The notes below the pieces were generated by a model. The model made no database searches. It was not told where the DNA came from and saw only the letters and a program-made list of their open reading frames with translations. A DNA stretch of 64,000 nt from Actinomadura oligospora ATCC 43269 (GTDB lineage: Bacteria; Actinomycetota; Actinomycetes; Streptosporangiales; Streptosporangiaceae), in assembly GCF_000518265.1 (NCBI RefSeq), contig NZ_KI912410.1, positions 538,774 through 602,773 of the forward strand, written 5' to 3'. This document shows positions 3,275 to 20,437 of the stretch, piece after piece. Every line of letters begins with the position of its first letter. The first letter of the stretch is position 1. The position numbers were made by a program, and so were the translations under genes.

Positions 3275-4236
3275 CGGGTCTCCTCCCGCCAGCGCGAGAA
3301 GCGCAGGTACAGCAGCACCATGACCAGCACGAGCGCGAAGTTGACCACCGACATCGCCGCGGACTCGCCCACGTGCTGGTCGGAGAAGGCCAGCTTGTAC
3401 ATGAACGTGGTCGTGGTGTCGGTGTCGTTGCCCGGCCCGCCCCCGGTCATCTCGTAGATGATCGGGAACGAGTTGAACACGTTGATGACGTTGATGATCC
3501 CGGCGATGAGGATCGCCGGGCGCAGCAGCGGCAGCGTGATCTGGAAGTAGGACCGCCACGGGCCCGCGCCGTCCACCCGGGCCGCCTCGTACACGTCGGC
3601 CGGGATGGTCTGCAGCCCGGCGAGGATCACGAACGAGGTGAACGGCAGCGACACGAACACCGCCACCCACATCATCCAGAGCATCGCCTGGTGCGGGTCG
3701 CCCAGCCAGTTGTGCGGCTGGTCGATCACGTGCAGGTCGAGCAGCACCCGGTTGACCAGGCCGGAGAAGTTGTCCAGCATCCACTTCCAGATCAGCGCGG
3801 TCATCAGGACCGACGCCGCCCATGGCACGATGACCGCCCAGCGCACCACGCGGCGGCCGGGGAAGCGGGCGTTGAGCAGCTGGCCGAGCGCCAGCGACAA
3901 CAGCAGCGTCACGACGACGACGCCCCCGACCCACAGCACCGTGCGGAGCAGGACCGGGACCAGGGCGTCCTCGTCGAACAGGTCGGAGTAGTTACCGGTC
4001 CCGTTCCAGCCCGAGGTCAGGCCGGACGAGGTGATCTTCTGCAGCGAGGTGCGGGCCATCTCCACGACGGGCCACAGCACCACGAAGGCGATGAGCAGGA
4101 GCGACGGGCCGAGCCACAGCAGGGGCGCGAGCTTGCGCAGCGCCCGCAGCGCGGCCGGGGACGCGGCCCCGGGGCGGGAGGCCCCGGGTGCCGCGTCCGG
4201 CGGGCTCACGTCGTCCGTGTGTTGGACGTCGTGCAC
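3271..4236 (-). CDS. Carbohydrate ABC transporter permease, MalF type
   Basis: A 321-residue permease with an Ala/Pro-rich cytoplasmic N-terminal extension (about 40 residues) followed by about six membrane segments. The EAA loop reads YEAARVDGAGPWRSYFQITLP. It pairs with the downstream MalG-type permease to form the membrane channel. It starts 7 nt after the stop of the solute-binding lipoprotein gene, in the usual order binding protein-MalF-MalG. Confidence 0.93.
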   Translation of the reverse strand: MHDVQHTDDVSPPDAAPGASRPGAASPAALRALRKLAPLLWLGPSLLLIAFVVLWPVVEMARTSLQKITSSGLTSGWNGTGNYSDLFDEDALVPVLLRTVLWVGGVVVVTLLLSLALGQLLNARFPGRRVVRWAVIVPWAASVLMTALIWKWMLDNFSGLVNRVLLDLHVIDQPHNWLGDPHQAMLWMMWVAVFVSLPFTSFVILAGLQTIPADVYEAARVDGAGPWRSYFQITLPLLRPAILIAGIINVINVFNSFPIIYEMTGGGPGNDTDTTTTFMYKLAFSDQHVGESAAMSVVNFALVLVMVLLYLRFSRWREETR

Positions 4237-4243
4237 GGCTCGA

Positions 4244-5491
4244 TCAGCCGGCCTTCTCGGCGGTCTTCTGGATGTCGCCGAGGACGGCCTTCGGGTCCTT
4301 GCTCGCGACGGCCGTGCCGAGCTGCTGCTTCACCGCGCCCGCGACCGCGCTCCACGCGGGGTTGCTCGTCGGGGCGAACTTGCTGGTGGGCAGCGCGTCC
4401 ACGAACTGCTTGAAGTACGGGTCGGCGCTCAGCGCGTCACCGGCGGACTTGGTCACCGGCAGGAAGTTCTCCAGCTTGAGGAACTTGCTGGTGTTGTCCT
4501 TGGTGTAGAAGAAGTCGAGGAACTTCCTCACGGCCTCCTTGTTCTTGCCGTCGTTCTTCTTGAACGCGGCGAGGACGTCCATGACGCCGAGCGTGTTGTG
4601 CGCGGTCCCGTCCTTGCTGGGCAGCGGGGCGATGCCGTAGTTCAGGTTCTTGTTGACCGGGTCGATGAACCCGGCGCGGGTGAACGGTCCGCCGATCGAC
4701 ATGCCGACCCGGCCCTGCGCGAACTGGTTGAACACCGTCTTGCGGTCGGTGCTCTCCGGGTTCGGCTGGGTCAGCCCGGACTTGTTGAGGTCCTTGAGGA
4801 AGTTCAGCGTGTCCACGTTGGCCTGCTGGTCGATCGCCCACTTCCCGGACGCGTCGACCCAGCCGCCGTTGTTGTTCATCGCCCAGGAGTAGAACTCGGC
4901 CTGCGCCTCCTCGGGCCCGAGCGGCAGGCCGTAGCCGATCGCCCCGCCCGCCTTGACCTTCTGCGCGTCGGCCTTCACGTCCGCCCACGTCTTGGGCGCG
5001 TCGTTGATGCCGGCCTTCTTGAACAGGTCCTTGTTGTAGAACATCAGCCGGGCGCTGGAGATGAACGGCAGCGCGTACTGCGTGCCGTTGTACTTGGCCT
5101 GGTCCACGAAGGTCGGGGAGAAGTCGCTCAGGGTGTTCGGCGACACCACGTCGGACGCCTGGTAGATCAGGCCGTCCCGCGCGAAGTCGGAGAACGCGTT
5201 GTAGTTCAGCACGTCGGGGACCTGCTTGGTCTGGACGTAGGTCTTCACCTTGGCGTCCATCTGCGTCCAGTCGACCATCTCCAGGTCGACCTTGTACCCC
5301 GAGTTCCTGGCCTCGAAGTCCTTGATCAGGCCGTCCCAGTAACCCTTGGTGTTGTCGTCGTAGATGGCCGCGACGAACTTGATCGTCTTGTCGGACCCGC
5401 CGTCGCTCGACGAGCTTCCCTTGCCGCAGCCGCTCGCGCCCACGGCGACCGTGAGACCCGCGGCGATGGCGACCGTGAGATGCCGTTTCAT
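4244..5491 (-). CDS. Sugar-binding lipoprotein of an ABC importer
   Basis: A 415-residue family 1 extracellular solute-binding protein. The N-terminus has a basic start, a hydrophobic stretch and a lipobox ending ASGC (C22), followed by a Ser/Gly-rich linker, so it should be anchored outside the membrane. The in-frame ATG at 5491 was chosen over upstream starts because it begins the signal peptide and is preceded by a purine-rich GGAGAAGGCGGGG region. It delivers sugar to the two downstream permeases. The ligand is not evident; a chitobiose or N-acetylglucosamine oligomer (DasA-like role) is suggested only by the operator and the ROK kinase. Confidence 0.92.
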   Translation of the reverse strand: MKRHLTVAIAAGLTVAVGASGCGKGSSSSDGGSDKTIKFVAAIYDDNTKGYWDGLIKDFEARNSGYKVDLEMVDWTQMDAKVKTYVQTKQVPDVLNYNAFSDFARDGLIYQASDVVSPNTLSDFSPTFVDQAKYNGTQYALPFISSARLMFYNKDLFKKAGINDAPKTWADVKADAQKVKAGGAIGYGLPLGPEEAQAEFYSWAMNNNGGWVDASGKWAIDQQANVDTLNFLKDLNKSGLTQPNPESTDRKTVFNQFAQGRVGMSIGGPFTRAGFIDPVNKNLNYGIAPLPSKDGTAHNTLGVMDVLAAFKKNDGKNKEAVRKFLDFFYTKDNTSKFLKLENFLPVTKSAGDALSADPYFKQFVDALPTSKFAPTSNPAWSAVAGAVKQQLGTAVASKDPKAVLGDIQKTAEKAG

Positions 5492-5570
5492 CTGGTCCCC
5501 GCCTTCTCCGCGCACATTGAAAGAATGTGCGCGGTACGAATGCCCTATGAGCAGAAACGCGCGTGGCCCG

Positions 5571-5599
5571 ACGATAAGAGGTGGTCCGTACCAGTTCAA
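5571..5599 (-). promoter_or_regulatory. Predicted promoter of the sugar-uptake operon
   Basis: On the minus strand, TTGAAC (5599-5594) and TATCGT (5576-5571) are separated by exactly 17 bp, matching sigma-70-type -35 and -10 boxes at 4 of 6 positions each. The expected transcript start is near 5565, giving a leader of about 75 nt before the lipoprotein start at 5491. Confidence 0.6.
5581..5596 (-). promoter_or_regulatory. DasR-like (dre) operator
   Basis: On the minus strand the sequence ACTGGTACGGACCACC (5595-5580) agrees at 12 of 16 positions with the Streptomyces dre consensus ACTGGTCTAGACCACT bound by the GntR/HutC regulator DasR, and keeps the TGGT-N4-ACCA dyad (5582-5593). It fills the spacer between -35 and -10, an ideal repressor position. 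No regulator gene of this family is in the window. Confidence 0.6.
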
Positions 5600-5761
5600 G
5601 AGTCCACTTACCCACGAGTCTCAACCGTTATCGGCTCTCTTGCCCTGGTCTGTGCTGGTACGTGCCGTACGCAGGACTGGTCCGGTCTCCGGCCGCCGTC
5701 CTCCCGGGGTTGCGGCCCGGCACCTAACCGCGATTGCGTCCCCGCCGCTGCCTCGAGCACC

Positions 5762-6595
5762 TCAGGTGAGCGCGGTGGCGTCCAGGATCCGGGAGAACAC
5801 GAACGGTCGCAGGACGTCGTCCCGGCGCCACGTCCCGGCCGGAACGGCGTCCTCCATCCCCACGTGCGCGCGGGTCCTCATCCCGCACTCCGCCACGAGC
5901 GCCTCGGCCTCGTCGGGCGTCAGGAACGTCCGGTACGGCTCGCCGCTCTCCACGACCGCCTGGTCGGCGAACGCCCCGTACTCGCGCCCGATCCCGTCCC
6001 GCAGCCCGGGCGGGACCATGTAGTCCATGACGAGCTCGGCCCCGAGCCCGGCGACCGCGCGGACGGTAGTCTCAACAGTCGCCCGGGACAGATAAACACT
6101 CACCCCGAGCCACCCCACGAGCGTCCGCCGCCGGGGATCGAACCCCGCCGCCGCAAGCCTTTCGGCCAACCCGCCGCGCTCCAGATCGAGCGGGACGAAT
6201 TCCAGCCCCTCCGGCACGGCGAGCCCCGCCGTCGAGATCAGCTCCCGTTTCCATGCCTGCGTGTCAGGGTGATCCACCTCGAATACCCGGACGTCCGAAT
6301 TCCGGAAGGCGAACGTGTCGAGCCCCGCTCCGAGAAGCACGTACTGTTCGACTCCGGACGCCGCGATCCGGTCTTCGACGAAGCGGCTCCGCGTCACCCC
6401 GAGCGCCCGCGTCCCCCACAGGACGACATGGTCGCCATGCGCCCGGTGGTATCCGACCAGCTCGTCCGCCGCGTCCCCGAGCAGTGCCGCCACGACGTCG
6501 TCCCGCAGAATCGCCGGTTCCCCGTCCACCGCCAGGTGGGCCGCCCGCGCGGCCGCCACCATCATCGCCGTCCGGCTCGCCGTTCCGTCCCGCAT
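5762..6595 (-). CDS. SAM-dependent methyltransferase, leucine carboxyl methyltransferase-like
   Basis: A 277-residue class I methyltransferase of the LCM/TIGR00027 type often annotated in actinomycetes. The SAM-binding motif is LLGAGLDTFAFR (about 87-98), followed by the acidic strand VFEVDHPDTQAWK and a C-terminal YMVPP region. The ATG at 6595 is preceded by GGGAGGCGGAGAG, a good ribosome-binding site. The substrate is unknown. It is divergent from the radical SAM gene fxsB, so a tailoring role in that RiPP pathway is possible but unproven. Confidence 0.85.
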   Translation of the reverse strand: MRDGTASRTAMMVAAARAAHLAVDGEPAILRDDVVAALLGDAADELVGYHRAHGDHVVLWGTRALGVTRSRFVEDRIAASGVEQYVLLGAGLDTFAFRNSDVRVFEVDHPDTQAWKRELISTAGLAVPEGLEFVPLDLERGGLAERLAAAGFDPRRRTLVGWLGVSVYLSRATVETTVRAVAGLGAELVMDYMVPPGLRDGIGREYGAFADQAVVESGEPYRTFLTPDEAEALVAECGMRTRAHVGMEDAVPAGTWRRDDVLRPFVFSRILDATALT

Positions 6596-6922
6596 CTCTC
6601 CGCCTCCCGAAAATCGTCCCGGCGGAGATGCTAAATCGCTGATGTGGGCGATTAAAGCAATCATAGCAGTCGAAAATAAATTCCCGATAACCATTGAAAG
6701 GCAATTCGGGGCGGTGTTGGAGTCGCCCCGGAGCCGGTGCGGTGTCGCGGGGCCGGGGGCGACGGATTCGGAACCCGCCGCGTCGAAGGACGCGTCCGGG
6801 CTGCCCGCATGTGGCCGGAGTGACGGGTTTGTTGATCTTGAAGACTGCTTACATATCCGGACAAAGGTGCTGGGCCGTCCGGCGTCGCACCGTGCCCGGA
6901 CCAACCCTGGGGGCTGATCGGC
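6596..6922. promoter_or_regulatory. Divergent control region between methyltransferase and fxsB
   Basis: No gene is seen here. The methyltransferase side is AT-rich for this genome (about 6628-6700). On the minus strand it contains TATGAT (6665-6660) as a good -10 candidate, followed by an inverted repeat AATCGC-N8-GCGATT (6634-6653) in the leader that could be an operator. On the fxsB side, TTGATC near 6833 lies upstream of an AT-rich stretch at about 6850, but no convincing -10 is seen. fxsB itself has only a weak ribosome-binding site (GGGGG about 10 nt before GTG). Confidence 0.4.
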
Positions 6923-9526
6923 GTGGCGGCTCGCACCGACGGAGGCGAGTGGCCCGGCTCCCCGGACTTCGCGGCGGGCCTCGCGGCGCTGCGGGAGTCC
7001 GGCTGGCGGCCGACCCCGTTCCGCCAGTTCATCCTGAAGGTCCACAGTCGCTGCAACCTGGCGTGCGACTACTGCTACGTCTACGAGATGGCCGACCAGG
7101 GGTGGCGGGAACAGCCCCGGAGGATGAGCGGCGCGGTCGTGGACGCCACCGCGCGGCGGATCGGCGAACACGTCCGCGCGCACGGGCTGACCGACATCGA
7201 GGTGATCCTGCACGGCGGTGAACCGCTGCTCGCCGGGCCCGACCTGATCCGGCACGCGGTCGTGGCCGTCCGTCAGGAGGTCGGAGCTCGCGCGCGCGTG
7301 CGGGTGGGCGTCCAGACGAACGGCGTCCTGCTGGACGAAACGTTCCTGGCCCTCTTCGACGAGCTGGACATCCGGGTCAGCGTCAGCCTGGACGGCGACG
7401 AACGCGGTCACGACCGGCACCGGCTGCACGCGAACGGCCGGGGCAGCTACGCGCAGACGGCCGCCGGACTCGAAAGGCTCACGGCCGAGCCGTACCGCCA
7501 CCTGTTCGGCGGCCTCCTCGCCACGATCGACCTCGCGAACCCGCCCGTCGAGACCTACGAGGCGCTGCTCCGGTTCCGTCCGCCCGCCGTCGACTTCCTG
7601 CTTCCGCACGGCAACTGGGACACTCCGCCGCCGGGACGCGACCCCGCCGCCCCGGACGCCCCCTACGGCGACTGGCTGACCGCCGTCTTCGACCGCTGGA
7701 CGGCCGCGCCGCGCCGGGAGACGCACGTCCGGCTGTTCCGCGAGCTCATCGCGCTGAGCCTGGGCCGTCCGTCCGCGAGCGAGATGGTCGGGCTGTCCCC
7801 GGCCGCGATGGTCGTGGTCGAGACGGACGGCACGGTCGAGCAGGTCGACACGCTCAAGTCCGCCTACGAGGGCGCCGCCGCGACCGGCCTGCACGTCGGC
7901 CGGGACGGCTTCGACGCCGCGCTCGCCCTGCCCTCGACCGCCGCCCGGCAGATCGGCGCGGACGCCCTGTCCGCGACCTGCCGCGCCTGCCGGGTCGGGC
8001 GGATCTGCGGCGGCGGCCAATACGTCCACAGGTACCGGGCGGGCAGCGGCTTCCAGAACCCGTCCGTCTACTGCCGCGACCTGTTCCGGCTGGTCAGCCA
8101 CGTCCGCGACGCCGTCGCCCGCGACCTCGCGCGCGCGAAGGACGAGGCCGCGAGAGCCGGACGAGCGCGGACCCGACAAGCGCAGGTGGGAGACGCACGG
8201 ACGAGGAGCGAACCGATGCGGCCGGAACTGAAACGCCTGTCCCTCCCCGAGAAGGTCTTCGCGGGTCTCGCCCAAGGCGGCGGCGGGGCCTACGCCGTGG
8301 ACGAGCTGTGGCGCGTTCAGCGGTCCAAACGCCTGCTGCTCCTGCGCTGGGTGCGCGAGGCCGCCAGGTCACGCGACCCCGGACGCGAGGCCCGCGCGCG
8401 CCAGGCGTACGCGCTGCTCGCCGACATCCAGGGCCGCGCGCCGGACGCCGTCCGCGTCGTCCTCGACCACCCGTCCGTCGGCGTCTGGGCGCACGCCGTC
8501 GCCTCCGCGGGCGCCGACACCGACCCGATCGGCGCGCTGGCCGCCGCCGCGGCGATCCACGCCCGCGACCCGCGTCCGGTCGAGGTCGCCGGCGGCCCGG
8601 ACGGCCTGTTCCTGCCGTCCCTCGGCATGGCCGTCCCCTTCGCCGGGCCCGGCGTCGTCCGCGCCGCCCCCGAGGGCCCGGTCACGATCTCGTCCGGCGC
8701 GGGCACGACCGTCCTGCCCGGCGAGGACCCGCACCGCGACGCCCCCGGCTGGCACGGCCTGCGCACGCTCGAGGCCGAGTACCACGGCATGGCCCTGCGC
8801 CTCCTCCTGGACGACTGCGACCCCCTCCGCTCCGTCGGCGGCGACCCGATGCCGCGCCTCACCCCCGAGGAGACCGAGCAGTGGCGGGACATCCTGCGCG
8901 GAGCGTGGCGCCTGCTCGTCCGCCGCCACTGGACGATCGCCGAGGAGGCGGCCCGCACCCTCCGCGTCCTCACCCCCATCGCCCCTTCGGAGCGGGGAAT
9001 GAGCAGTGCCACCGCCCACGAGGCTTTCGGCGTCGTGTTTACGTCTTTACCGCAGGACGAACGGGACCTCGCCGTGGCCTTCGCCCACGAAGTTCAGCAC
9101 GCGAAACTCGGTGCGTTGAACGACGCGATCCCCCTCGCCAAGGCGGACGATGGCGGTCTTCACTACGCGCCCTGGCGAGACGACCCGCGCCCGGCGGCCG
9201 GACTGCTCACCGGCGCGTACGCGCACCTCGGCGTCGCCGGATTCTGGCGCAGGCAGCGCCACCACGAGCACGGTGCCGCAGCGTTGCACGCACACACCGA
9301 GTTCGCGCGGTGGCGTGACGCGTCTGCGCTGGTCACCGGTGTTCTCATACGCAGCGGCAGGCTGACCGCTGAGGGCGAGCGGTTCGTCGCCGAGATGGAC
9401 CGTACGTTGCGCGCATGGCGGCGCGAACCCGTCCCGACTGCGGCGCTCGACCTCGCTCGCGCCATCGCGGCCCGGCATCGCGAGCGTTGGCGGGGGCGGC
9501 ACGGCGACCTCCGCCCGCTGTTCTAG
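6923..9526 (+). CDS. fxsB: FxsB-type radical SAM/SPASM maturase fused to a HEXXH-motif domain
   Basis: An 867-residue RiPP-modifying enzyme. Residues about 30-400 are a radical SAM domain with the 4Fe-4S motif CNLACDYC (C44, C48, C51), HGGEPLL, and a SPASM auxiliary-cluster region with C353, C356, C362 and C384. A charged Arg/Ala linker (about 397-431) leads to a C-terminal domain beginning RPELKRLSLP, which carries HEVQH (H722, E723, H726) and later an H/E-rich helix. FxsB enzymes are known to form three-residue cyclophanes in FxsA peptides. The HEXXH domain family (TIGR04267 type) has recently been linked to oxoglutarate-dependent peptide beta-hydroxylation; I recall this and cannot verify it here. 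The FxsT-like gene and precursor next door support the call. The exact product is unknown. Confidence 0.88.
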   Translation: MAARTDGGEWPGSPDFAAGLAALRESGWRPTPFRQFILKVHSRCNLACDYCYVYEMADQGWREQPRRMSGAVVDATARRIGEHVRAHGLTDIEVILHGGEPLLAGPDLIRHAVVAVRQEVGARARVRVGVQTNGVLLDETFLALFDELDIRVSVSLDGDERGHDRHRLHANGRGSYAQTAAGLERLTAEPYRHLFGGLLATIDLANPPVETYEALLRFRPPAVDFLLPHGNWDTPPPGRDPAAPDAPYGDWLTAVFDRWTAAPRRETHVRLFRELIALSLGRPSASEMVGLSPAAMVVVETDGTVEQVDTLKSAYEGAAATGLHVGRDGFDAALALPSTAARQIGADALSATCRACRVGRICGGGQYVHRYRAGSGFQNPSVYCRDLFRLVSHVRDAVARDLARAKDEAARAGRARTRQAQVGDARTRSEPMRPELKRLSLPEKVFAGLAQGGGGAYAVDELWRVQRSKRLLLLRWVREAARSRDPGREARARQAYALLADIQGRAPDAVRVVLDHPSVGVWAHAVASAGADTDPIGALAAAAAIHARDPRPVEVAGGPDGLFLPSLGMAVPFAGPGVVRAAPEGPVTISSGAGTTVLPGEDPHRDAPGWHGLRTLEAEYHGMALRLLLDDCDPLRSVGGDPMPRLTPEETEQWRDILRGAWRLLVRRHWTIAEEAARTLRVLTPIAPSERGMSSATAHEAFGVVFTSLPQDERDLAVAFAHEVQHAKLGALNDAIPLAKADDGGLHYAPWRDDPRPAAGLLTGAYAHLGVAGFWRRQRHHEHGAAALHAHTEFARWRDASALVTGVLIRSGRLTAEGERFVAEMDRTLRAWRREPVPTAALDLARAIAARHRERWRGRHGDLRPLF
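8203..8218 (+). promoter_or_regulatory. Possible internal ribosome-binding site and in-frame ATG
   Basis: GAGGAG (8203-8208) lies 7 nt before an in-frame ATG at 8216 (residue 432 of FxsB), exactly where the HEXXH domain begins after a low-complexity linker. It could allow separate synthesis of a 436-residue HEXXH protein. This may also be chance in an Arg/Glu-rich linker. Confidence 0.35.
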
Positions 9527-9562
9527 GCCGGTGGCGCTGCCTGACTCGCCGGACAGTGCAGC

Positions 9563-12142
9563 CTAGATTGGTGGCGGGTCGAAGTCGCAGTCCAGGTGGC
9601 GTCGCTCGGCTGCGACGACCGCGTCTGGGTGGTTGAGGCCGAGCACCCGCGCGTACCGGTGGATCGTGTCCTCGTACAACTCCTCGCCCTCCTGCTGGAG
9701 GGCGTCGTTTCGCTGCTCTCGGCCCTCGCGCTCCAGATCGGCTGAGAGGTTCGCGGCGCACGCCAGCGTCATGAAATGGTCCGTGCCGAGCAGTGACCGC
9801 AGCCGCCGCATCGTGTCCCGGCCAAGCGCGATCGCGCTGTCGAGGTCGCCCAGGTCAGCGAGGTCACTGGCGAGGTTGGTGGCGATGGTCAGTGAATAGT
9901 GATGGTCGCGGCCGAGCCTGGCTTCCAGTCCGTCAAGGGCCTTCTCATTAACTGACCGAGCCGTCGTCGTCTCACCGCGGACCCGGTGCAGCAGCGCCAG
10001 GTTTCCTTGGACGCCGAAGACGTAGGGGTGCGTTGGACCGAACATGTCCGGGTAGAGGTCGGCGACGCTCTTTGCCAACTTCAGCGCCTCATCTTGTGTG
10101 TTCACGGTCCGGTAGGTGTTCGCCAGATTGGTCGCCGACGCGAGCGTGTCAGGGTGGATCGGGCCGAATACGCGCAGGCACCGGTCATGGGTTTCCCTGG
10201 CGAGCTCCAACGCCTCCTGGTAGCGGCCGGCGCGGCGCCTGGCGATCGCAAGGTCGGTGGACGCGCGGACCGTCACCGCGTGCTCCAGCCCGAGTTGTTC
10301 GGTGGCGAGGGCGAGCGCGTCCTCGCCGAAGTCCATCGCGTCCCGGAAATCCCCGAGGAGCCGGACGGCTCGGGCGAGACCGTTCAGCCGCAGGGCCTCC
10401 TCCATGGCGCTCACGCCCTGGGGACGTGGCCGTCCGGAGGACGCCCGGTAGCAGCGTTCCTGGAGATCTCGCGCCTTCACGTAGTCGCTGACCAGGCCAT
10501 GGTCGAGCGCCAGATTGTTCATCGCGCGGAGGGTGCGGAAGTGGCCCGGTCCGAAGAAGCGCTCATGCTCGCGTAGCGAGAGCTCACCCTGTTCCTGCCC
10601 TTGTCGGAAGTCGCCGCGGGCGCGCAGGTCGGCACCGCTGCTGTCGATCACGGCGAGTAGCAGGTCGCGGAACGCGTCGTCGTCACGGCCACTGGCCCGC
10701 ATGGTGCGTAGAGCTTCCTGGTTGATCATGTATGCCTCGGCGTACTGACCCCGTTCCCGGATGAGAATGGCGCGCAGACGCTGTGCTGCCAGGACGTCGG
10801 GATCGTCCGGCGGCGAGGTTAGCCGCCAATGGTCTTGAACCCGTTTGGTAAAGCTGGCTCCGCCTGCCTGATCACTCGACACGTACAGGTAGCGCGCGAA
10901 CGCCAGGATCATCGCGCGAACCCTTGGATCAGTGCTGTCGATAGCAGCAGTCGGGTGAATATGGCCGTAAAGGGCGCCGAAATCCCGCCAGGACTCGGTC
11001 TGGTCGGGGTCCTTGGGGGTCGCTTCGGCGAGCAGCAGGTGGACGTCCGAGAGATAGCGTGCCTTGTCCTCCGTTGACAATGCGTTGCGGACGAGACCCT
11101 GAATAAGTCGGTGCATCTGGATCGTGCGGTTGTCTCCTTCGATCTCCACCCGTACTAGGGCGTACCTGCGCAGGCCCGCGATGGCACGGCTGGTCTCGAT
11201 GGAGTCGGCAAGGATCTCTGCCAACTCAGGCGACACGCCTTTGGGAGCGGCTCGAAAGACGTCTCGCGGGAAAGGTTCCGGTCCGAAGAAAGCGCAGCAG
11301 CGCAACAGCGAGACAGCGTTCGGATAGTTCCGTTCCAGCTCCTCTACCGCAAGCCGCCACGCTGCCGTCATTGGACGCGGATATTCGCTCGCTTCGCCTT
11401 CCAGAAGGAGGTCGCCGATCCGGTCGTGGAGCAGGGAGAGGTAATCCCTCACCGACATCGCGGACTCCTGTAGGAGCGACGCCGCCTGCTCCAACGCGAG
11501 CGGGAGATCGCCGAGTTCGTCGGCGAGGCGGGAGGCGTCCTCGTCAACGAGCGCGCCGGGCAGCCGCCGACTGAGGAACTCGACGCTCTCCACTCGGGAG
11601 AAGACGTCCACCTCGACTGTGGCGACGCGCCCGCGCCCTTTCCAGTTGGGATTACGGGAGGTGATGAGGACGTCGCCGGGGCCCTGAGGTACGAATGAGT
11701 AGATGTCCTCCGGTTCGTCTGCGTTGTCGAAGATCAGCAGCCAGCGGCCATAAGGTTCTCCACGTTCCAGGGCTTGACGGACCGAGTTGGCGGCCTCCTC
11801 CACGCCGACCTTGTTGGCGGGCGGCAGGCCCAGGTGAGGTGCAAGCCCGGCGAGTGAGGCGCGGACGAGGCTCTCCTGCGCGGACGGAATCCACCAGACG
11901 AGCTGGTATTGGGAGCGGAAGCGGTGGGCGTACTCAATCGCGAGCTGCGTCTTGCCGACTCCGGCCATCCCGTGTAGGGCATATGGCACTACCGCTGCGG
12001 CGACATTATTACTGATGCTCTCCCGTAGGGAGGACAGCAAATCCTTGCGCCCGGTAAAATTGTGGTTGCGTGCGGGAACCTTGGTGCCCCAGATGCGCGG
12101 GACTCCTGCGGTTATCGGGGTGGCGTCGATGGAATCCTTCAC
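9563..12142 (-). CDS. fxsT: FxsT-like NB-ARC/TPR (STAND) protein
   Basis: An 859-residue cytoplasmic STAND protein. The N-terminus PRIWGTKVPARNHNFTGR is typical of the NB-ARC/TPR proteins accompanying FxsA/FxsB. Walker A is GMAGVGKT (58-65) and Walker B is WLLIFDNADE (about 143-152); an RNBS-like TSR and a GDLPLALEQAA (GLPL-like) motif follow. Roughly residues 430-830 are kinesin-light-chain-type TPRs with repeated LG-x-x-H-x-x-T and NLA motifs, and the end is DCDFDPPPI. The GTG at 12142 was chosen for its GGAGG, 8 nt upstream; an in-frame GTG at 12172 is an alternative. It is convergent with fxsB (36 bp apart) and divergent from the precursor gene. Its role in Fxs systems is not established; sensing or scaffolding through the TPRs is inferred. 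Confidence 0.88.
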   Translation of the reverse strand: MKDSIDATPITAGVPRIWGTKVPARNHNFTGRKDLLSSLRESISNNVAAAVVPYALHGMAGVGKTQLAIEYAHRFRSQYQLVWWIPSAQESLVRASLAGLAPHLGLPPANKVGVEEAANSVRQALERGEPYGRWLLIFDNADEPEDIYSFVPQGPGDVLITSRNPNWKGRGRVATVEVDVFSRVESVEFLSRRLPGALVDEDASRLADELGDLPLALEQAASLLQESAMSVRDYLSLLHDRIGDLLLEGEASEYPRPMTAAWRLAVEELERNYPNAVSLLRCCAFFGPEPFPRDVFRAAPKGVSPELAEILADSIETSRAIAGLRRYALVRVEIEGDNRTIQMHRLIQGLVRNALSTEDKARYLSDVHLLLAEATPKDPDQTESWRDFGALYGHIHPTAAIDSTDPRVRAMILAFARYLYVSSDQAGGASFTKRVQDHWRLTSPPDDPDVLAAQRLRAILIRERGQYAEAYMINQEALRTMRASGRDDDAFRDLLLAVIDSSGADLRARGDFRQGQEQGELSLREHERFFGPGHFRTLRAMNNLALDHGLVSDYVKARDLQERCYRASSGRPRPQGVSAMEEALRLNGLARAVRLLGDFRDAMDFGEDALALATEQLGLEHAVTVRASTDLAIARRRAGRYQEALELARETHDRCLRVFGPIHPDTLASATNLANTYRTVNTQDEALKLAKSVADLYPDMFGPTHPYVFGVQGNLALLHRVRGETTTARSVNEKALDGLEARLGRDHHYSLTIATNLASDLADLGDLDSAIALGRDTMRRLRSLLGTDHFMTLACAANLSADLEREGREQRNDALQQEGEELYEDTIHRYARVLGLNHPDAVVAAERRHLDCDFDPPPI

Positions 12143-12223
12143 GCGGCTCGCCTCCGCACGTGGTCGCACCACTGATCTCGCTTCGCATCCTATGCCGCCA
12201 GAGGCTGCCCGGCCACGGCGCCG

Positions 12224-12249
12224 GTCTCACCTGATTGGTCAGGTGAGAC
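12224..12249. promoter_or_regulatory. Perfect inverted repeat, probable operator of fxsT/precursor
   Basis: GTCTCACCTGA (12224-12234) and its exact reverse complement TCAGGTGAGAC (12239-12249) are separated by TTGG. The repeat sits in the 255-bp divergent region between fxsT and the precursor gene and has no T-run, so an operator is likelier than a terminator. A CATAAT hexamer at 12304-12309 is a possible -10 for the precursor, but I see no matching -35. Confidence 0.65.
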
Positions 12250-12397
12250 TATGGTGAAGGGCGCATGGTCTCTCGCGCAATGCAGGGTGGCAATGCCGGA
12301 CAGCATAATGGCGCGATGTGGTCAGGTTGCCCCACGGCCTGCAGGGAACATGCAGAATCACAGATGAGCCCCGACCGCCGGAGCAAGGAGTCTTCCG

Positions 12398-12574
12398 ATG
12401 CGCGACGAGGTGGATTTCCGCAGCGACCTGCCGGATCTCTCCGGGGCTTCCCTGGAGGAGCTGAGCGGCCTGGGCGGGACGGTTCTCGCCGAAGAAATCG
12501 AGACCCTGCTCAAGCCTGTGCGCAAGCCGGCGGTGGTGTGCGCGAACTTCAGCGCCTACCTCGGCGACGAGTGA
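12398..12574 (+). CDS. fxsA: FxsA-like RiPP precursor peptide
   Basis: A 58-residue acidic peptide. The conserved leader-like part LPDLSGASLEELSGLG is followed by VLAEEIETLL (residues 11-38), which resembles FxsA leaders (DLxxxSLxEL...VLAxALxxxL). The C-terminus after KP reads VVCANFSAYLGDE (46-58), with Cys48, Phe51 and Tyr54. It lacks the canonical terminal FxSxA, so the crosslink site is uncertain; Phe51, Tyr54 and Asp57 are candidates for modification. AAGGAG at 12385-12390 stands 7 nt before the ATG, an excellent ribosome-binding site. The gene lies between fxsT (divergent) and the STAND-like gene (70 nt downstream, same strand). No cleavage protease or dedicated exporter is adjacent. 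Confidence 0.8.
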   Translation: MRDEVDFRSDLPDLSGASLEELSGLGGTVLAEEIETLLKPVRKPAVVCANFSAYLGDE

Positions 12575-12643
12575 CGCGCCCGATCCGTGATATCGAGCTG
12601 GGCTCCGACAGTTAGAAGGACGTCGGGCGAGGGAGTGGGCGAC

Positions 12644-14713
12644 GTGGAGAAGCTCACGTCCCGCCACGACCCAAACCCCTATCCGGGGCGAAGGCCGTTC
12701 ACCGATGCTGAGGGACACCGATTCTTCGGCCGTGCCCAGGAGTCACAGAGACTCGCCGATCTCTGGACGCACCGTCCCGTCACGGTGCTGCGCGGGCCGA
12801 GCGGCTGTGGCCGGACCTCACTGATCAACGCAGGTGTGATCCCGCTCCTGCGAGACACCCGGCACGACCTCGTCCCCGTCGCGGACGTCGGCCCCTTGGC
12901 CGTCCCGCCGCAGGGACGGGTCCTGCCGAACGCGGCGTTTCCGGAGTCTGATCCGTATTTGCTGGCGCTGCTCGCCGCGTGGCGGGAGGAGCCCGGCGAG
13001 ACCATTCCCGTGGCCGCGTTCCCGCACCAGACCAAGCGACGCGGCCGGTTCGGCGAACGGCGTCCGACCCTGTTCGCGATCGACTGCGCCGAACGCTGGT
13101 TCACCGGCCGCGTACTGTTCCGCCAACAGACCGGCCTTCATGAAGTCCTCGCGACCGTGGCAGCCGATCCGAGCGTCCGGCTGCTGCTCTCCGCCCGGGA
13201 GGAGGGGGCCGACCACCTGATCGACGCCGTCGCCCGGCACGACCTGCCGGTCGCGGAGATGCGCCTCGGGCCGCTCACCTGGAGCGGGGCCCTGACCGCC
13301 GTGGCGGAACCCGCGCAGCGGGCGGGCCGCCCGTTCGAGGACGGCGCGGCCGAACGCCTGGTGGACGAGCTGAGCGCCGGGCACGAGGACGCGCTCGTGG
13401 AACCGGTGCTCCTCCAGGCCGCGTGCCGAACCCTCTGGGGCCGCCTCGCCGACACCGACGAGACCATCCCCGGACGCCTGCTCCCCAACCTGGACGACAT
13501 CCTCGCCGACCTGTGCACCGCGACCGTCGACAGCGTCACGGACGACCTGGACGCCGCAGCCCGTTCCGCGGGCGCGATCTCCGAAACCGAGTGGCGGACG
13601 CTCAGGACGTGGGAGCACGCGCCCGAGGAGGTCGCGCGCCGGGCCGCCGAGATCCCGTCGGATCCCAAGGACGCCGCGGCTCCCGCCAGAGAGCGGGCAC
13701 GGGGCCGCCCCGCCTCGTCCGCCGCCGCGCGGCACCTGCTCAGGGAGGCGCACCTGGTGCGGAGCGTCCGCACCGGCGACACCTCGACGACCGGCGACAC
13801 CATCACGACCGGTGACACCGTGCCGTCCGGCGACTCCGTGACGGACGTCCTGCAGCATCCCGACCTCGCCCTCGCCCTCGAACGGCTGGGGGAGCGGCCG
13901 AGGCGCAGCAGGTACCACACCGGCCCCTGGCATCGCCTGCGCGCGGCCGAGGCGGCGCTGGCCGCCGGGCAGGCGCTGCTCGCGCGGGGACTCGCCGGGT
14001 CGGCCGCGGGGGACCCGGGCACCGACGCCGGATTCCAGGCGGACGTGCAGACCGTCCTCGGCAACATCGCCTACCTGCACGGACGCTACGACGAGGCGGC
14101 CCGCTGCCACCAGCGCGCGGGCGAGCTCCTCCAGACGATCGAGGACAGCGCGGCCGTCGTCCGGCAGCTCGCGGCCGAGGGCTGGTCGCGGTTCGCCGCC
14201 GGTGACGTCGAACGCGGCGTCGCGCTGCTGCGCAGCGGGGCCGACCTGGCCCCCGGCGACGCGTCCGTCCAGGTCGGGCTGGGCCGGATGCTGTGGCGGG
14301 CCGGACGTCCCGAGGCGGCGCTCGCGGTGCTCAGCGGCGTGCTCAACCGGCACGGCGACGTCCACGAGGCCCTGGAGATCCGCGGTGAGATCCGCGCCGA
14401 CCGGGGCGAGTCGGAGTCGGCGCTGCGCGACCTGGACCGGCTCGGCCGGTCCGCCGACCCCGCCGCCCGCGCGGCCCGCGCGCTGGCGCTCGCGCGCCGG
14501 GGCCGCCTGGACGCGGCCCGCGCGGAGATCGGCGAGGTCGTCGTGGCGGGCGCGGAGAGCGGCCCGGCGCTGTACCGCGCGGCGCAGGTCGAGCTGATGA
14601 CCGGCGACACCGGAACGGCCACCGACCTCGCGACCCGCGCGGTCGAGGCCCGGCACCCGCCGCTGCCCGAGCACCTGCGCGCCGAGGCCTGGCGTCTGCT
14701 GGCGGACGTGTGA
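12644..14713 (+). CDS. STAND-like NTPase/TPR protein with altered P-loop
   Basis: About 689 residues. The N-terminus NPYPGRRPFTDAEGHRFFGR is the usual entry to a novel STAND (nSTAND1-type) NTPase. Walker A reads GPSGCGRTS (51-59), with Arg57 in place of the invariant Lys, and the usual hhhhDQFEE Walker B is degenerate (LFAIDCAER, D147). Nucleotide hydrolysis may therefore be lost. A low-complexity segment of GDT repeats follows near residue 380, then about 250 residues of TPR-like helical repeats (for example NIAYLHGRYDEAARCHQRAGELL). Starts at GTG 12587, 12635 or 12644 are possible; 12644 has GAGGGAG about 8 nt upstream. It follows the RiPP precursor by 70 nt and is probably co-transcribed. 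Its function is unknown; it may be a sensor or adaptor for the peptide system. Confidence 0.78.
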   Translation: MEKLTSRHDPNPYPGRRPFTDAEGHRFFGRAQESQRLADLWTHRPVTVLRGPSGCGRTSLINAGVIPLLRDTRHDLVPVADVGPLAVPPQGRVLPNAAFPESDPYLLALLAAWREEPGETIPVAAFPHQTKRRGRFGERRPTLFAIDCAERWFTGRVLFRQQTGLHEVLATVAADPSVRLLLSAREEGADHLIDAVARHDLPVAEMRLGPLTWSGALTAVAEPAQRAGRPFEDGAAERLVDELSAGHEDALVEPVLLQAACRTLWGRLADTDETIPGRLLPNLDDILADLCTATVDSVTDDLDAAARSAGAISETEWRTLRTWEHAPEEVARRAAEIPSDPKDAAAPARERARGRPASSAAARHLLREAHLVRSVRTGDTSTTGDTITTGDTVPSGDSVTDVLQHPDLALALERLGERPRRSRYHTGPWHRLRAAEAALAAGQALLARGLAGSAAGDPGTDAGFQADVQTVLGNIAYLHGRYDEAARCHQRAGELLQTIEDSAAVVRQLAAEGWSRFAAGDVERGVALLRSGADLAPGDASVQVGLGRMLWRAGRPEAALAVLSGVLNRHGDVHEALEIRGEIRADRGESESALRDLDRLGRSADPAARAARALALARRGRLDAARAEIGEVVVAGAESGPALYRAAQVELMTGDTGTATDLATRAVEARHPPLPEHLRAEAWRLLADV
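13772..13843 (+). repeat. Four imperfect 18-bp repeats in the STAND-like gene
   Basis: Four consecutive 18-bp units beginning ACCGGCGACACC (13772, 13790, 13808 and, more diverged, 13826) encode the linker TGDTST-TGDTIT-TGDTVP-SGDSVT between the NTPase and TPR parts. The period is a multiple of three, so unit number can change without a frameshift. Confidence 0.75.
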
Positions 14714-14789: not shown

Positions 14790-15488
14790 ATGGGGTCCAC
14801 TGCCACCGCGCTGGTGACGGGCGGGACGGCCGTCCTCACCGGAACGCTCACCGCGGTCGTCGGCGTCGTCACGGCCCGCCTGGGTCATGCCTACGAGCGT
14901 CGCCGCGCGGCCGACGCCCGGCGTGACGAGCAGTCCGACGCCGCCGACCAGCGCGTCCGCGAGGCCCTGCGGAGCATGGACAACGCCGTCGTCGACCTCG
15001 GGGTGACTGTCCGCCTCTGCGAACGCCTGCGTTCCCTCGGAGCCCTCGGCGAGGACGAGGAGCTGGCGGGCGGACGCCGCGTCTCCTCCGAGTACCGGAC
15101 GGCCGTCCGCGAGATCCAGGGCTTCCTCGACGCCGTCGGCCACAGGACGGACCTGGTGAAACCGGTGGACGCCCTGCGCGCCGAGGTTCGCAGGGCCTGG
15201 CTGCACGGTCTCGGTGACGCCGGGAAGCAGGACCCGCGCAGCGCCGGTGCCGTGGACGAGGAACTCCAGCGCCGCATGAGCGACATAGGACGCACCCTCA
15301 CGGAACCGTCCCCGACAGGTTCGTCCCTCATACCCGAGCGGGCACGGCCGCCTTCCGTACCGTCCCGTGACGGAGCCGCCGCCGAAGCCGGAGGACGCGC
15401 GCCCGCCGGGCCGCCCAGAGCAGGACGCCGGTGGCGGCGATGGCGATCGGGACCGCCCACGCGACGGCGAGAGCGCCCACCGCGGTGA
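14790..15488 (+). CDS. Membrane-anchored hypothetical protein
   Basis: A 232-residue protein with a single hydrophobic N-terminal segment (about 5-28, Gly/Thr/Val-rich), then a long charged, probably helical domain (ERRRAADARRDEQ..., REIQGFLDAVG, LRAEVRRAWLHGL), suggesting a membrane-tethered coiled coil. GGAGG lies 8 nt before the ATG. It begins 76 nt after the STAND-like gene and may belong to the same transcript. The last 160 nt overlap the convergent MFS gene, and the codon pattern there is poorer, so the C-terminal Arg/Pro-rich tail may be unusual or the result of a frameshift. No family recognised. Confidence 0.6.
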   Translation: MGSTATALVTGGTAVLTGTLTAVVGVVTARLGHAYERRRAADARRDEQSDAADQRVREALRSMDNAVVDLGVTVRLCERLRSLGALGEDEELAGGRRVSSEYRTAVREIQGFLDAVGHRTDLVKPVDALRAEVRRAWLHGLGDAGKQDPRSAGAVDEELQRRMSDIGRTLTEPSPTGSSLIPERARPPSVPSRDGAAAEAGGRAPAGPPRAGRRWRRWRSGPPTRRRERPPR

Positions 15489-16656
15489 TGGCGACCCCGC
15501 CGCACATCGTGCCGATGGGCGCGATCCCGAGGGTCACGAACCGGTTCGTCCCGGCGACGCGTCCACGCAGCTCAGGAGGGGTGCGGCTGGCCTGGTAGGT
15601 CGACAACGCGATGTTCAGCCGCGCCCCCACGAACCCGACGCCGCCCCACGCGACCATCCAGACGCCGGCCCAGGGGAAGACCGCGAGCAGCGTGGTCATC
15701 CCGAGCCAGGCCCACATGCACAGCTTGACGAGCTTGATCGGACGGCGTCCGAAACGGCGTCGCCGCGTGACCGCCACATATCCGGAGACGAACGACCCGC
15801 CTAAGCCGGGCGCGGCGAGCAGCACCCCTGCCATCGCGAGCGGAAGGCCCGCCTCACGCGCGCGCACGACCAGAAGCAAGGTGACGACCTGGAACAGCAG
15901 ATTCGTGGCCGTGCACGCGATCAGCGTCGAGCGCAGGAACCTGTACCGCCACAGCCACGTCAACCCCTCCAGCATCTCGGCGACGAGCGACCCGCCTCGC
16001 TGGAGCTCGGATCGCACCCTGGACGCATCGGTCGGCCCATCGGCGCGCAGCGGACGGGCATGGTTCCAGCGCCCCCGGAGCCCGGCGGACCGCAGCGTCA
16101 GGATCGCCGCCGTGGACGCCAGCCCGAACAGGGCGTCCGCGGCGTACGGGAAGCCGGTGCCCGCCGCGTGCAGGACGCCGCCCAGGGGCCGTCCGAGCAG
16201 CATCGCGCCGTTCGCCCGCCCCTCGTTCTGCGCCATCGCCCGCTGGAAGTGCTCCGCCGGGACGACGCTCGGGACGGCGGTCACCTCGGCGACGTTGTAG
16301 AAGGTCGTGCACGTCCCGCTGACGAGCGCGGCGACGATCAGGACGGGCGGCCGGAACACCCCGGCGGCGAGGGTCAGCACGACCGCCAGCGACACCAGCG
16401 TCCGGACGGTCTGGCTGAGCAGCATCGTCCACCAGTGGTCCAGCCGGTCCACCAGCATTCCGGCGGGAATGTGCAGCAGCAGGCTCGGAACCGTCCCGGC
16501 CGCAACGACATAACTGACAAAAGTAGGCGATCTGGTAAGCGTGAAGGCGAGCAGAGGCGCCGCGGTGGTGACGCTCATCGCGCCGAGCAGGGAGGCCGCC
16601 GAACCCGTCCAGAGCAGGCCGAACCGGAAACGCCAGCCGTCCGGTTCCTTCGCCAT
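15328..16656 (-). CDS. MFS transporter (MFS_3/EntS-like)
   Basis: A 442-residue integral membrane protein with about 12 hydrophobic segments, resembling the EntS/MFS_3 branch that exports siderophores and drugs. The ATG at 16656 (MAKEPDGWRFRFGLLW) was chosen because the first membrane segment follows directly; a TTG at 16695 would add 13 residues. The Arg-rich C-terminus (RRARVLRLRRRLRHG) is cytoplasmic. The 3' end overlaps the convergent gene at 14790-15488. The substrate is unknown; proximity to the RiPP locus makes peptide export conceivable but not shown. Confidence 0.88.
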   Translation of the reverse strand: MAKEPDGWRFRFGLLWTGSAASLLGAMSVTTAAPLLAFTLTRSPTFVSYVVAAGTVPSLLLHIPAGMLVDRLDHWWTMLLSQTVRTLVSLAVVLTLAAGVFRPPVLIVAALVSGTCTTFYNVAEVTAVPSVVPAEHFQRAMAQNEGRANGAMLLGRPLGGVLHAAGTGFPYAADALFGLASTAAILTLRSAGLRGRWNHARPLRADGPTDASRVRSELQRGGSLVAEMLEGLTWLWRYRFLRSTLIACTATNLLFQVVTLLLVVRAREAGLPLAMAGVLLAAPGLGGSFVSGYVAVTRRRRFGRRPIKLVKLCMWAWLGMTTLLAVFPWAGVWMVAWGGVGFVGARLNIALSTYQASRTPPELRGRVAGTNRFVTLGIAPIGTMCGGVAITAVGALAVAWAVPIAIAATGVLLWAARRARVLRLRRRLRHGTVRKAAVPARV

Positions 16657-19494: not shown

Positions 19495-20298
19495 TCAGTT
19501 CTTCCGGGCCACCGCGCAGTACCCGGCGACGTTGTCGGCGCCCTCGAACGCCGAGCGCCACCGCGTCATCGACACCACGCCCGGCTCCAGGACGTCCAGC
19601 CCCTCGAGGAACGAGGCGACCTCGTCCCGGGACCGGGGCCGCATCGGGTTCGCGGACTTGGCGTTCCAGTCGCTCTGCGCCTCGGCCTGCGCGGACGGGT
19701 CGGGGTCGAAGTCCAGCGTGGAGTGCGTGAGGACCAGGTGGCTGCCGGACGGCACCGCGTCCAGCAGCGTCCGGACGATCGCGTGCGCGTCGCCCATGTC
19801 GTGGACGAAGTGCAGGATCCCCAGCAGCATGATCGCGACAGGACGGTCGAAGTCGAGCGTCTTGGCCGCCCGCTCCAGGATGGACTCCGGGTCGCGCAGA
19901 TCGGCCTCGATGTAGTCGCACGCGCCCTCGGCCGTGCTGGTCAGCAGGGCGCGCGCGTGCACGAGGACGAGCGGGTCGTTGTCGACGTACACGATCCGCG
20001 TCTCGGGCGCGATGCCCTGCGCGACCTCGTGGGTGTTGTCCATCGTCGGCAGGCCCGTCCCGATGTCGAGGAACTGCCGGATCCCGAGGTCGGCGACCAG
20101 GTGCCGGACGGCCCGCCCGAGGAACGCCCGGTCGGCCCGGGCGATCGCCAGGATCGCGGGGAACGTCGCGATGAACCGTTCCGCGGCCTCCCGGTCGACC
20201 TCGTAGTTGTCGTTGCCGCCGAGCAGGTAGTTCCACACCCGCGCCGAATGCGGCACCGACGAGTCGATCCGCGAACCCCCGACGTCAGAGCCGCCCAC
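19495..20298 (-). CDS. DUF574-type SAM-dependent methyltransferase
   Basis: A 267-residue member of the Methyltransf_19 (DUF574) family, abundant in Streptomyces and relatives. The hallmark start RIDSSVPHSARVWNYLLGGNDNYEVDR is followed by the SAM motif FLDIGTGLPT, VYVDNDPLV and DLRDP. GTG at 20298 is chosen because AAGGGAG precedes it by 5 nt. The substrate is unknown. It is convergent with the response regulator, with 32 bp and a small CGTCCG/CGGACG hairpin (19463-19477) between them. Confidence 0.92.
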   Translation of the reverse strand: MGGSDVGGSRIDSSVPHSARVWNYLLGGNDNYEVDREAAERFIATFPAILAIARADRAFLGRAVRHLVADLGIRQFLDIGTGLPTMDNTHEVAQGIAPETRIVYVDNDPLVLVHARALLTSTAEGACDYIEADLRDPESILERAAKTLDFDRPVAIMLLGILHFVHDMGDAHAIVRTLLDAVPSGSHLVLTHSTLDFDPDPSAQAEAQSDWNAKSANPMRPRSRDEVASFLEGLDVLEPGVVSMTRWRSAFEGADNVAGYCAVARKN

Positions 20299-20437
20299 GA
20301 CAACTCCCTTCACCCACGAATGTTCCCGCCCACATTAGTGCGTCGGCCGCGTGCCGTCCGACTTTCGAGTTCCGCTGGACGAAAAGCCCCGCGAGGATTT
20401 CCCCGCCACGCCTTCCCAGCGTCACCGGAGAACCCCC

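Follow-up and report, generated by a model that had tools for sequence, protein, structure and literature searches.

A variant Fxs-type RiPP locus of Actinomadura oligospora with linked nSTAND1-TPR and MFS transporter genes

We analysed a stretch of 64,000 nucleotides from Actinomadura oligospora ATCC 43269 (contig NZ_KI912410.1, positions 538,774 to 602,773; hereafter the window), in which 48 open reading frames (ORFs) were called. An earlier note, made from the sequence alone, had placed here a ribosomally synthesized and post-translationally modified peptide (RiPP) locus of the Fxs type, and this claim was borne out: an FxsB enzyme, its NF040586 partner and an FxsA-type peptide lie together (Table 1). 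The range given for the locus, 6923-14713, held these three genes correctly, but an nSTAND1-TPR gene inside it had been overlooked, as had a linked gene beyond it, which encodes a major facilitator superfamily (MFS) transporter.

Table 1. Features of the locus, in window coordinates
Feature	Coordinates	Strand	Remarks
fxsBH, radical SAM/SPASM cyclophane synthase (N part) and alpha-ketoglutarate (aKG)-HExxH hydroxylase (C part)	6923..9526	+	TIGR04269, TIGR04267
Recombined tract: catalytic HExxH part, NB-ARC/TPR gene, intergenic region, precursor	8991..12574	.	Identity profile, site patterns, gene trees
NB-ARC (AP-ATPase) and TPR protein, FxSxx_TPR	9563..12172	-	Divergent to precursor; NF040586
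Perfect 11-bp inverted repeat GTCTCACCTGA-TTGG-TCAGGTGAGAC	12224..12249	.	Divergent promoter region
fxsA precursor, 58 residues	12398..12574	+	Core predicted around ANFSAYLGDE; predicted crosslink F51-A53
nSTAND1 NTPase and TPR protein (P0004)	12587..14713	+	PF20703, 99 bits; conserved fourth gene
MFS transporter, linked fifth gene	15328..16656	-	PF07690, PF05977; candidate exporter/self-protection pump

The FxsBH enzyme is a single open frame of 867 residues. As had been supposed, it belongs to the peptide-modifying SPASM family, scoring 480 bits against TIGR04269 (FxsB) over residues 33-395 (cut-off 370). Its second part scored 163 bits against TIGR04267 (aKG-HExxH) over residues 658-825 (cut-off 40), and the HEVQH motif is intact. 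Among solved structures, the best match of the radical SAM part was ChlB (PDB 9gm3, 281 bits) and that of the second part was PDB 22nu (126.5 bits over 442-837); ChlH (PDB 8s5f) matched weakly, with 32 bits. YhhB, XyeB and DynA share the radical SAM/SPASM superfamily, but an assignment to any of them was rejected because all scored below the curated cut-offs; two Viperin-like PADLOC matches (33 and 21 bits) to the radical SAM part were likewise discarded as superfamily cross-matches. The host genome holds one FxsB above the TIGR04269 cut-off, and 239 of 338 genomes searched in the host's family held relatives of FxsBH (matches at E 1e-60), a wide distribution that adds to the interest of the locus. 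The NB-ARC/TPR protein scored 901 bits against NF040586 (cut-off 300), and Pfam NB-ARC and TPR domains were found in it.

The precursor, MRDEVDFRSDLPDLSGASLEELSGLGGTVLAEEIETLLKPVRKPAVVCANFSAYLGDE, is exactly the peptide written in the earlier note, and AAGGAG stands 7 nt ahead of its ATG. The border between leader and core near ANFSAYLGDE is a guess. When the peptide was searched with TIGR04268 (FxSxx-COOH), the window copy scored 13.2 bits, below the cut-off of 28, and the orthologue in G041, 84% identical and with the same last ten residues, scored 28.8, above it. Six of the ten relatives scored passed this cut-off, 18 of the 20 aligned precursors matched the model at E 1 or better, and a search of the host genome with it at E 0.01 gave no match. 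Since the peptide ends F-S-A-Y-L-G-D-E, and not in an exact F-x-S-x-x, we file it by its sequence and these scores as a variant close to the FxSxx-COOH family, not as a canonical member.

Precursor matches were present in 6 of 65 genomes in the genus search, the host included (1e-3), and in 24 of 341 genomes in the family search (0.01), one of them (L021) inside a long unrelated frame. Four genomes, the host and three other Actinomadura species (G016, G041 and G023, presumably A. harenae, A. rupiterrae and A. logoneensis, respectively), carry FS[AS]Y[LI]GD, and the three orthologues keep the same gene order. Thus, conservation of the peptide next to FxsB homologues in related genomes, on which the earlier claim had been made to depend, was seen. 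Conservation of the NFSAYLGDE end itself went only part of the way: it is identical in G041, but G016 and G023 end GFSSYIGDAELG and keep only the shorter pattern. Whole-peptide pairwise ratios of nonsynonymous to synonymous substitution rates (dN/dS) among the four orthologues were 0.22-0.46 which, together with the syntenic orthologues in three genomes, argues that the precursor is not a chance ORF. Selective constraint is mainly in the leader; in codons 46-57, within a core type, the proportions of nonsynonymous (pN) and synonymous (pS) differences were 0-0.07 and 0-0.12.

To place the core we used a survey set of 40 regions picked among the precursor and FxsB matches plus 80 further loci. 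Note that these loci were chosen by their likeness to the window's FxsB or precursor, so the counts below are not those of a random sample; the duplicates L097-L100, L105, L106, L109 and L170 were left out of most of them. A profile built from the precursors gave 102 precursor rows, 90 of them distinct, and the core set comprises 85 rows after reassignment of L093 and L077 and removal of the doubtful L080, L081, L131, L147 and L165. The core start is F in 84 of these 85 distinct precursors and H in one, and the third core position (X3, equivalent to residue 53) is S in 43, N in 26, A in 11 and Q in 5; because the assignment pattern permitted only F/H/Y at the core start and S/N/A/Q at X3, less common letters would have escaped it. 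Exact [F/H]xSxx-COOH ends occur in 23 precursors, one with H (L117), and the tail has two residues in 38, more in 45 and fewer in two. The window's departure from the canonical end, reported earlier, is therefore real, but its tail is no outlier: 62 of the 85 precursors depart from the exact end, and the window's tail is one among many variants in a known peptide family. Nor is FxSxA, given earlier as the canonical terminus, the usual end here: the family is curated under the name FxSxx-COOH, and Ala closes not one of the 23 exact ends.

The residue at X3 seems, from sequence comparison, to change without large change of the enzyme, since the enzymes of the window (FSA precursor) and L057 (FSS precursor) are 92% identical in their radical SAM parts. 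On an FxsB tree of 81 rows, 12 of which carried the Ala label (the doubtful L131 included; labels were set before the core corrections), Ala at the acceptor required 10 changes, at least 8 of them forced by well supported branches, and the label was hardly clustered (77 of 500 shuffles were as low). Five residues within the first 400 of FxsBH sort with the acceptor residue in four sisters. The natural Ser/Ala/Asn/Gln series, partly on near-identical enzymes, could serve to test which beta carbons are open to FxsB. At FxsB loci without HExxH, Asn stood at X3 in 8 of 8 automatically assigned cores, compared with 18 of 77 at loci with HExxH (Fisher 3e-5); as these loci represent few related lineages, the association is only a lead. 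FDN cores at loci without an HExxH match were assigned automatically in L089, L104, L107, L108, L120 and L122 and read by eye in L123, L127 and L159.

The entry of MscB, IPR026335, is presumably the FxsB family. According to the part of PMC11002830 consulted, MscB forms C4(Phe)-Cbeta(Ser), from i to i+2, HaaB and ScaB form His-Cbeta(Ala), and YxdB forms Tyr-Cbeta(Asp). An Ala acceptor is thus chemically known, and by analogy with the i/i+2 rule of the family we predict a Phe51-Ala53 cyclophane in the window, where residue 53 is Ala; it is Ser in two sister species. F51, Y54 and D57 had been proposed as modified residues, and the acceptor at 53 had been overlooked. F51 fits, judging from an F that is invariant in the 20 aligned precursors, and Y54 is out of register, because i+2 from it falls on Gly56, a residue that lacks a beta carbon. 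D57 would be a possible site of hydroxylation, by analogy only. For aKG-HExxH enzymes, the portions of PMC12636437 and PMC13060819 consulted report hydroxylation of His and Asp by ChlH, of Gln by PosC and of Pro by PesO, and also list Phe as a known target. HExxH is kept at loci with plain FxSxx ends.

The nSTAND1-TPR gene, whose true start is likely the GTG at 12644, is a regular member of these loci. Of the 68 cases with enough sequence, 57 have a homologue no more than 3.5 kb from the NB-ARC/TPR gene, on the side where the precursor lies, and in 52 of these it shares the precursor strand; L063, L086 and L094 were counted as lacking it, yet they match elsewhere in the stretch. PF20703 was above its cut-off in all 10 scanned homologues. 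Between four species, the TPR half of the protein is almost invariant (last 180 columns: pN 0.012-0.028 and pS 0.19-0.33 relative to the window), unlike the NTPase part (columns 101-400: pN 0.067-0.24, pS 0.20-0.43).

The MFS gene also has a fixed place. With the window protein alone as phmmer query (1e-5), 39 of 68 NB-ARC/TPR loci had a homologue at a distance of 0.8-5 kb from an NB-ARC/TPR gene, towards the precursor, and in none of the 68 fetched stretches was one present only outside this slot. A profile, which was built from the same loci that were then scanned, was applied where an NB-ARC/TPR gene has 5.5 kb or more of sequence on that side; of 42 such genes it placed the MFS gene beside 28, with no match elsewhere in those loci. 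The host genome has 33 TIGR00900 matches at 1e-8 in 9.35 Mb, so that chance would put such a gene in a 4.2-kb slot in about 1.5% of cases. In L062, L064, L092, L095, L115 and L121 the MFS gene occupies the place of nSTAND1, no nSTAND1 match being near, and that of L072 falls in the slot when measured from the stretch's second NB-ARC/TPR gene. Moreover, in ten Nocardia loci without an NB-ARC/TPR match above 500 bits the MFS gene lies directly behind or near fxsB (L137, L138, L140, L142, L149, L153, L154, L155, L157 and L166); a precursor appeared in these only as a weak match, in L153. The nearest MFS paralogue in the host genome scored 148 bits, and 35 of the 39 slot homologues, including the window's own, exceed this. 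Common descent is less sure for the remaining four (L072, 128; L141, 117; L132, 99; L164, 58) and for the ten Nocardia homologues (88-140 bits), which do not. The neighbouring P0006 and the sugar-binding protein were present at 4 of 113 loci, all close relatives.

From the gene content, the family membership of the enzyme, the conservation of the peptide and the fixed positions of the nSTAND1 and MFS genes, all of them observed, we infer how the locus may work. The radical SAM half of FxsBH would link Phe51, through its ring, to the beta carbon of residue 53 and so close a cyclophane of three residues. The HExxH half fused to it, using iron and alpha-ketoglutarate, would probably hydroxylate one core residue, Asp57 being the first choice and Ser52 or Phe51 the next. 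After cleavage, the linked MFS protein, the best candidate for export of the product or for self-protection, would probably export or expel the mature C-terminal piece, and the NB-ARC/TPR and nSTAND1-TPR proteins would probably act as sensors of the peptide or regulators of the system. The linked nSTAND1-TPR gene and the fixed-slot MFS gene make export plausible, and these two extra genes shift the likely mechanism away from an internal signal alone and towards a probably exported product; the linked transporter turns export into a testable hypothesis. Overall, we consider it probable, if some way from assured, that this is an Fxs-type triceptide locus with a Phe51-A53 cyclophane, a hydroxylated core, export by the MFS protein and two STAND-TPR sensors.

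Several observations weigh against this interpretation. The orthologous precursor of A. harenae, 75% identical, has zero match to TIGR04268, and between the two core types codons 46-57 showed a pN of 0.24 against a pS of 0.16-0.29, so constraint on the core across types is not supported. In the literature, as far as the parts of the sources consulted go, no enzyme of the FxsB family was found to make a Phe-Ala crosslink, and no protease family was found among the scanned ORFs of the locus. HExxH is kept where X2 is Gly (L152, L169 and L175) or where the tail has no Asp, so no single hydroxylation site fits all loci. By profile, 14 of the 42 NB-ARC/TPR genes that have enough flanking sequence are without the MFS gene, and export may thus not be general. 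Finally, the Walker A Lys of nSTAND1 is replaced by Arg in the window and three sisters (GPSGCGRT; GPGGCGRT in L059), so the window protein may not bind ATP normally. In 63 parsed nSTAND1 rows, which count one locus twice (L069 = L101), this position is Lys in 53 and Leu in one (L128), and five rows missed by the Walker A pattern have Lys once aligned.

The strongest alternative is that the product stays inside the cell and serves a STAND-based conflict system as its ligand or toxin, as Kaur and colleagues proposed for FxSxx loci, the MFS protein being a passenger or an unrelated pump. A coupling with AP-ATPase/TPR proteins is described there (PMC7159879, consulted in part), the locus has two STAND proteins, in the window the peptide has the same history as the NB-ARC/TPR gene, and the 14 NB-ARC/TPR genes without an MFS gene also fit. 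In addition, partial Mantel tests on 52 loci showed that core distances track nSTAND1 distances given FxsB (0.377, p 0.002, 500 permutations); the value was -0.06 for core and NB-ARC/TPR given nSTAND1 and 0.33 for leader and NB-ARC/TPR given FxsB. However, the link between core and nSTAND1 was unconfirmed by change counts, as X3 required 15, 13 and 14 changes on the FxsB, NB-ARC/TPR and nSTAND1 trees, respectively, and the tail 8 on each. Because these counts hardly differ, we rejected a co-variation partner for the core and claim none. A passenger also fits poorly with an MFS gene confined to one slot at 39 of 68 loci, far more than the genomic density of TIGR00900-like genes predicts, and with the Nocardia fxsB-MFS neighbours that have no strong NB-ARC/TPR match. 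We regard a purely intracellular product as unlikely, although it is an alternative to be taken seriously.

It is quite improbable that a second ring, from Tyr54 to Asp57 or a neighbour, makes the product bicyclic. Tyr directly follows X3 in 10 of the 85 precursors, in nine of which the tail is longer and holds Asp or Glu, Tyr-x-Asp crosslinking is known for YxdB (PMC11002830, in the part consulted), and the L086 precursor weakly matches the YxD-tail model (13.9 bits, cut-off 55); but Gly56 offers Tyr54 no beta carbon at i+2, and relatives read YLG, YIG, YVG, YGD, YTD and YTE, with no fixed acceptor position. That the precursor is decayed or unmodified and yields no product, as its sub-threshold TIGR04268 score, the Ala in place of Ser at the acceptor and the lack of clear constraint on core codons between core types might suggest, is hardly credible given the whole-peptide dN/dS, the identical last ten residues in the G041 orthologue, the intact HEVQH motif of the enzyme and the recurrence of the Ala acceptor in 11 of 85 precursors.

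Part of the locus lies in a recombined tract. In an rpoB piece of 1812 bases, the host was 98.45% identical to A. harenae (G016) at the nucleotide level, 98.07% to A. logoneensis and 96.96% to A. rupiterrae. The radical SAM tree is in agreement, placing the window with L057 (94/93; 100/96 in the 81-row tree), and the nSTAND1 tree placed it with L057 and L058 (97/96). The NB-ARC/TPR tree, by contrast, pairs L057 with L058 to the exclusion of the window (99/98), which groups with L059/A. rupiterrae there (84/84), in the precursor tree (93/94) and in the HExxH domain tree (94/97). Nucleotide identity to A. harenae, in 200-base steps, ranged from 0.87 to 0.94 between 6.8 and 9.0 kb, from there to 12.6 kb it was 0.69-0.90, between 12.6 and 14.0 kb 0.75-0.89, and from 14.0 to 16.6 kb it was 0.81-0.97; positions 5.8-6.8 kb gave no alignment. 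Informative sites favouring harenae, rupiterrae and logoneensis numbered 43/137/28 inside the tract; for everything that could be aligned outside the tract the numbers were 145/111/92 (p 6e-14, with sites treated as independent). All 19 informative sites of the precursor favour rupiterrae. The left border is clear. The right border is not sharp, because the sites of 12575-14713 (39/41/33) do not favour harenae; neither do those of 4001-6922 (16/25/13), so that outside the tract only 6923-8990 (49/25/18) and the sequence after 14713 (41/20/28) do. Of the 17 FxsBH residues that sort with peptide type, 11 lie at 689-813 and flank the HExxH motif on both sides. Since the parts of the tract adjoin on the DNA, their shared history is explained by one transfer; the recombined allele nevertheless points to parts, the hydroxylase, the NB-ARC/TPR protein and the peptide, that may have to match one another, which we offer as a suggestion.

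A broader conjecture, which we put forward as speculative and doubtful, is that FxSxx loci are exported-signal systems: a conserved synthase would make a cyclophane peptide whose tail changes fast, a co-inherited MFS protein would pump it out and paired STAND-TPR sensors would read it. The peptide, the NB-ARC/TPR protein and the catalytic part of the hydroxylase would be swapped among Actinomadura as an allelic unit, as in polymorphic recognition systems, and the window's crosslink would be an FxsB-type Phe-Ala bond.

Compared with the FxSxx-COOH/FxsA-FxsB (MscB) triceptides, the window shares the leader style, the FxsB enzyme, the Phe at the core start, the i+2 position of the acceptor and the NF040586 partner, but it differs in an Ala and not a Ser acceptor, an acidic tail of five residues and not two, the fusion of synthase and hydroxylase, and the linked nSTAND1-TPR and MFS genes. 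The fusion of radical SAM and aKG-HExxH parts recalls ChlBH (Morishita 2024, via PMC12636437, consulted in part), to which ChlB, the best solved match of the radical SAM part, belongs; ChlH of Chlorogloeopsis matches only weakly and the substrate is another. The FxSxx peptide-processing systems of Kaur 2020 (PMC7159879, partly consulted) likewise combine a peptide, a radical SAM enzyme, an HExxH protein and an AP-ATPase/TPR protein, but HExxH was then regarded as a peptidase. That source describes FxSxx-type loci with AP-ATPase as parts of conflict systems, and its main text gave no match for MFS or nSTAND; PMC8195603, also consulted in part, names nSTAND1 and gave no match for FxSxx. Among the matches listed in a literature search on nSTAND1 and radical SAM enzymes, none dealt with this pairing, judging by title and the opening of the abstract. 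We found no account of the product or role of such a locus, a silence that is weak evidence of novelty because most subscription papers lay outside the search. The linkage to nSTAND1-TPR and MFS genes, the repeated change of acceptor and the recombined tract are new. Of the genes linked in a VMAP-ternary conflict system, vWA, MoxR and VMAP, none was found among the 20 other window ORFs scanned (Pfam, 1e-5).

The palindrome between the divergent genes, considered as a possible operator, occurs once in the host genome, with up to 3 mismatches allowed, and was not found at the corresponding place in three sister species; no regulon emerged. Different palindromes with arms of at least 9 were present in four other distinct loci (L059 = L098, L064, L087 and L107) and in none of the rest, and a promoter and terminator scan of 12150-12650 found none.

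Some surveyed loci depart further from the common layout. In the Streptosporangium precursors of L117 (14439-14648) and L119 (14438-14647), His replaces the core Phe (VAGHQSSV). L061, L067, L068, L070 and L072 each hold two fxs systems with differing precursors, divergent in the first four; the second system of L072 is cut by the end of the stretch. L077 and L079 (group g35) carry several distinct FxsA-like precursors in one locus. In the flanks of the window, positions 19495-20313 scored a high 359 bits against PF04672 (Methyltransf_19), a family of S-adenosyl methyltransferases, and the remaining scanned flanks are ordinary (EF-G, homoserine dehydrogenase, Rho and ATP synthase).

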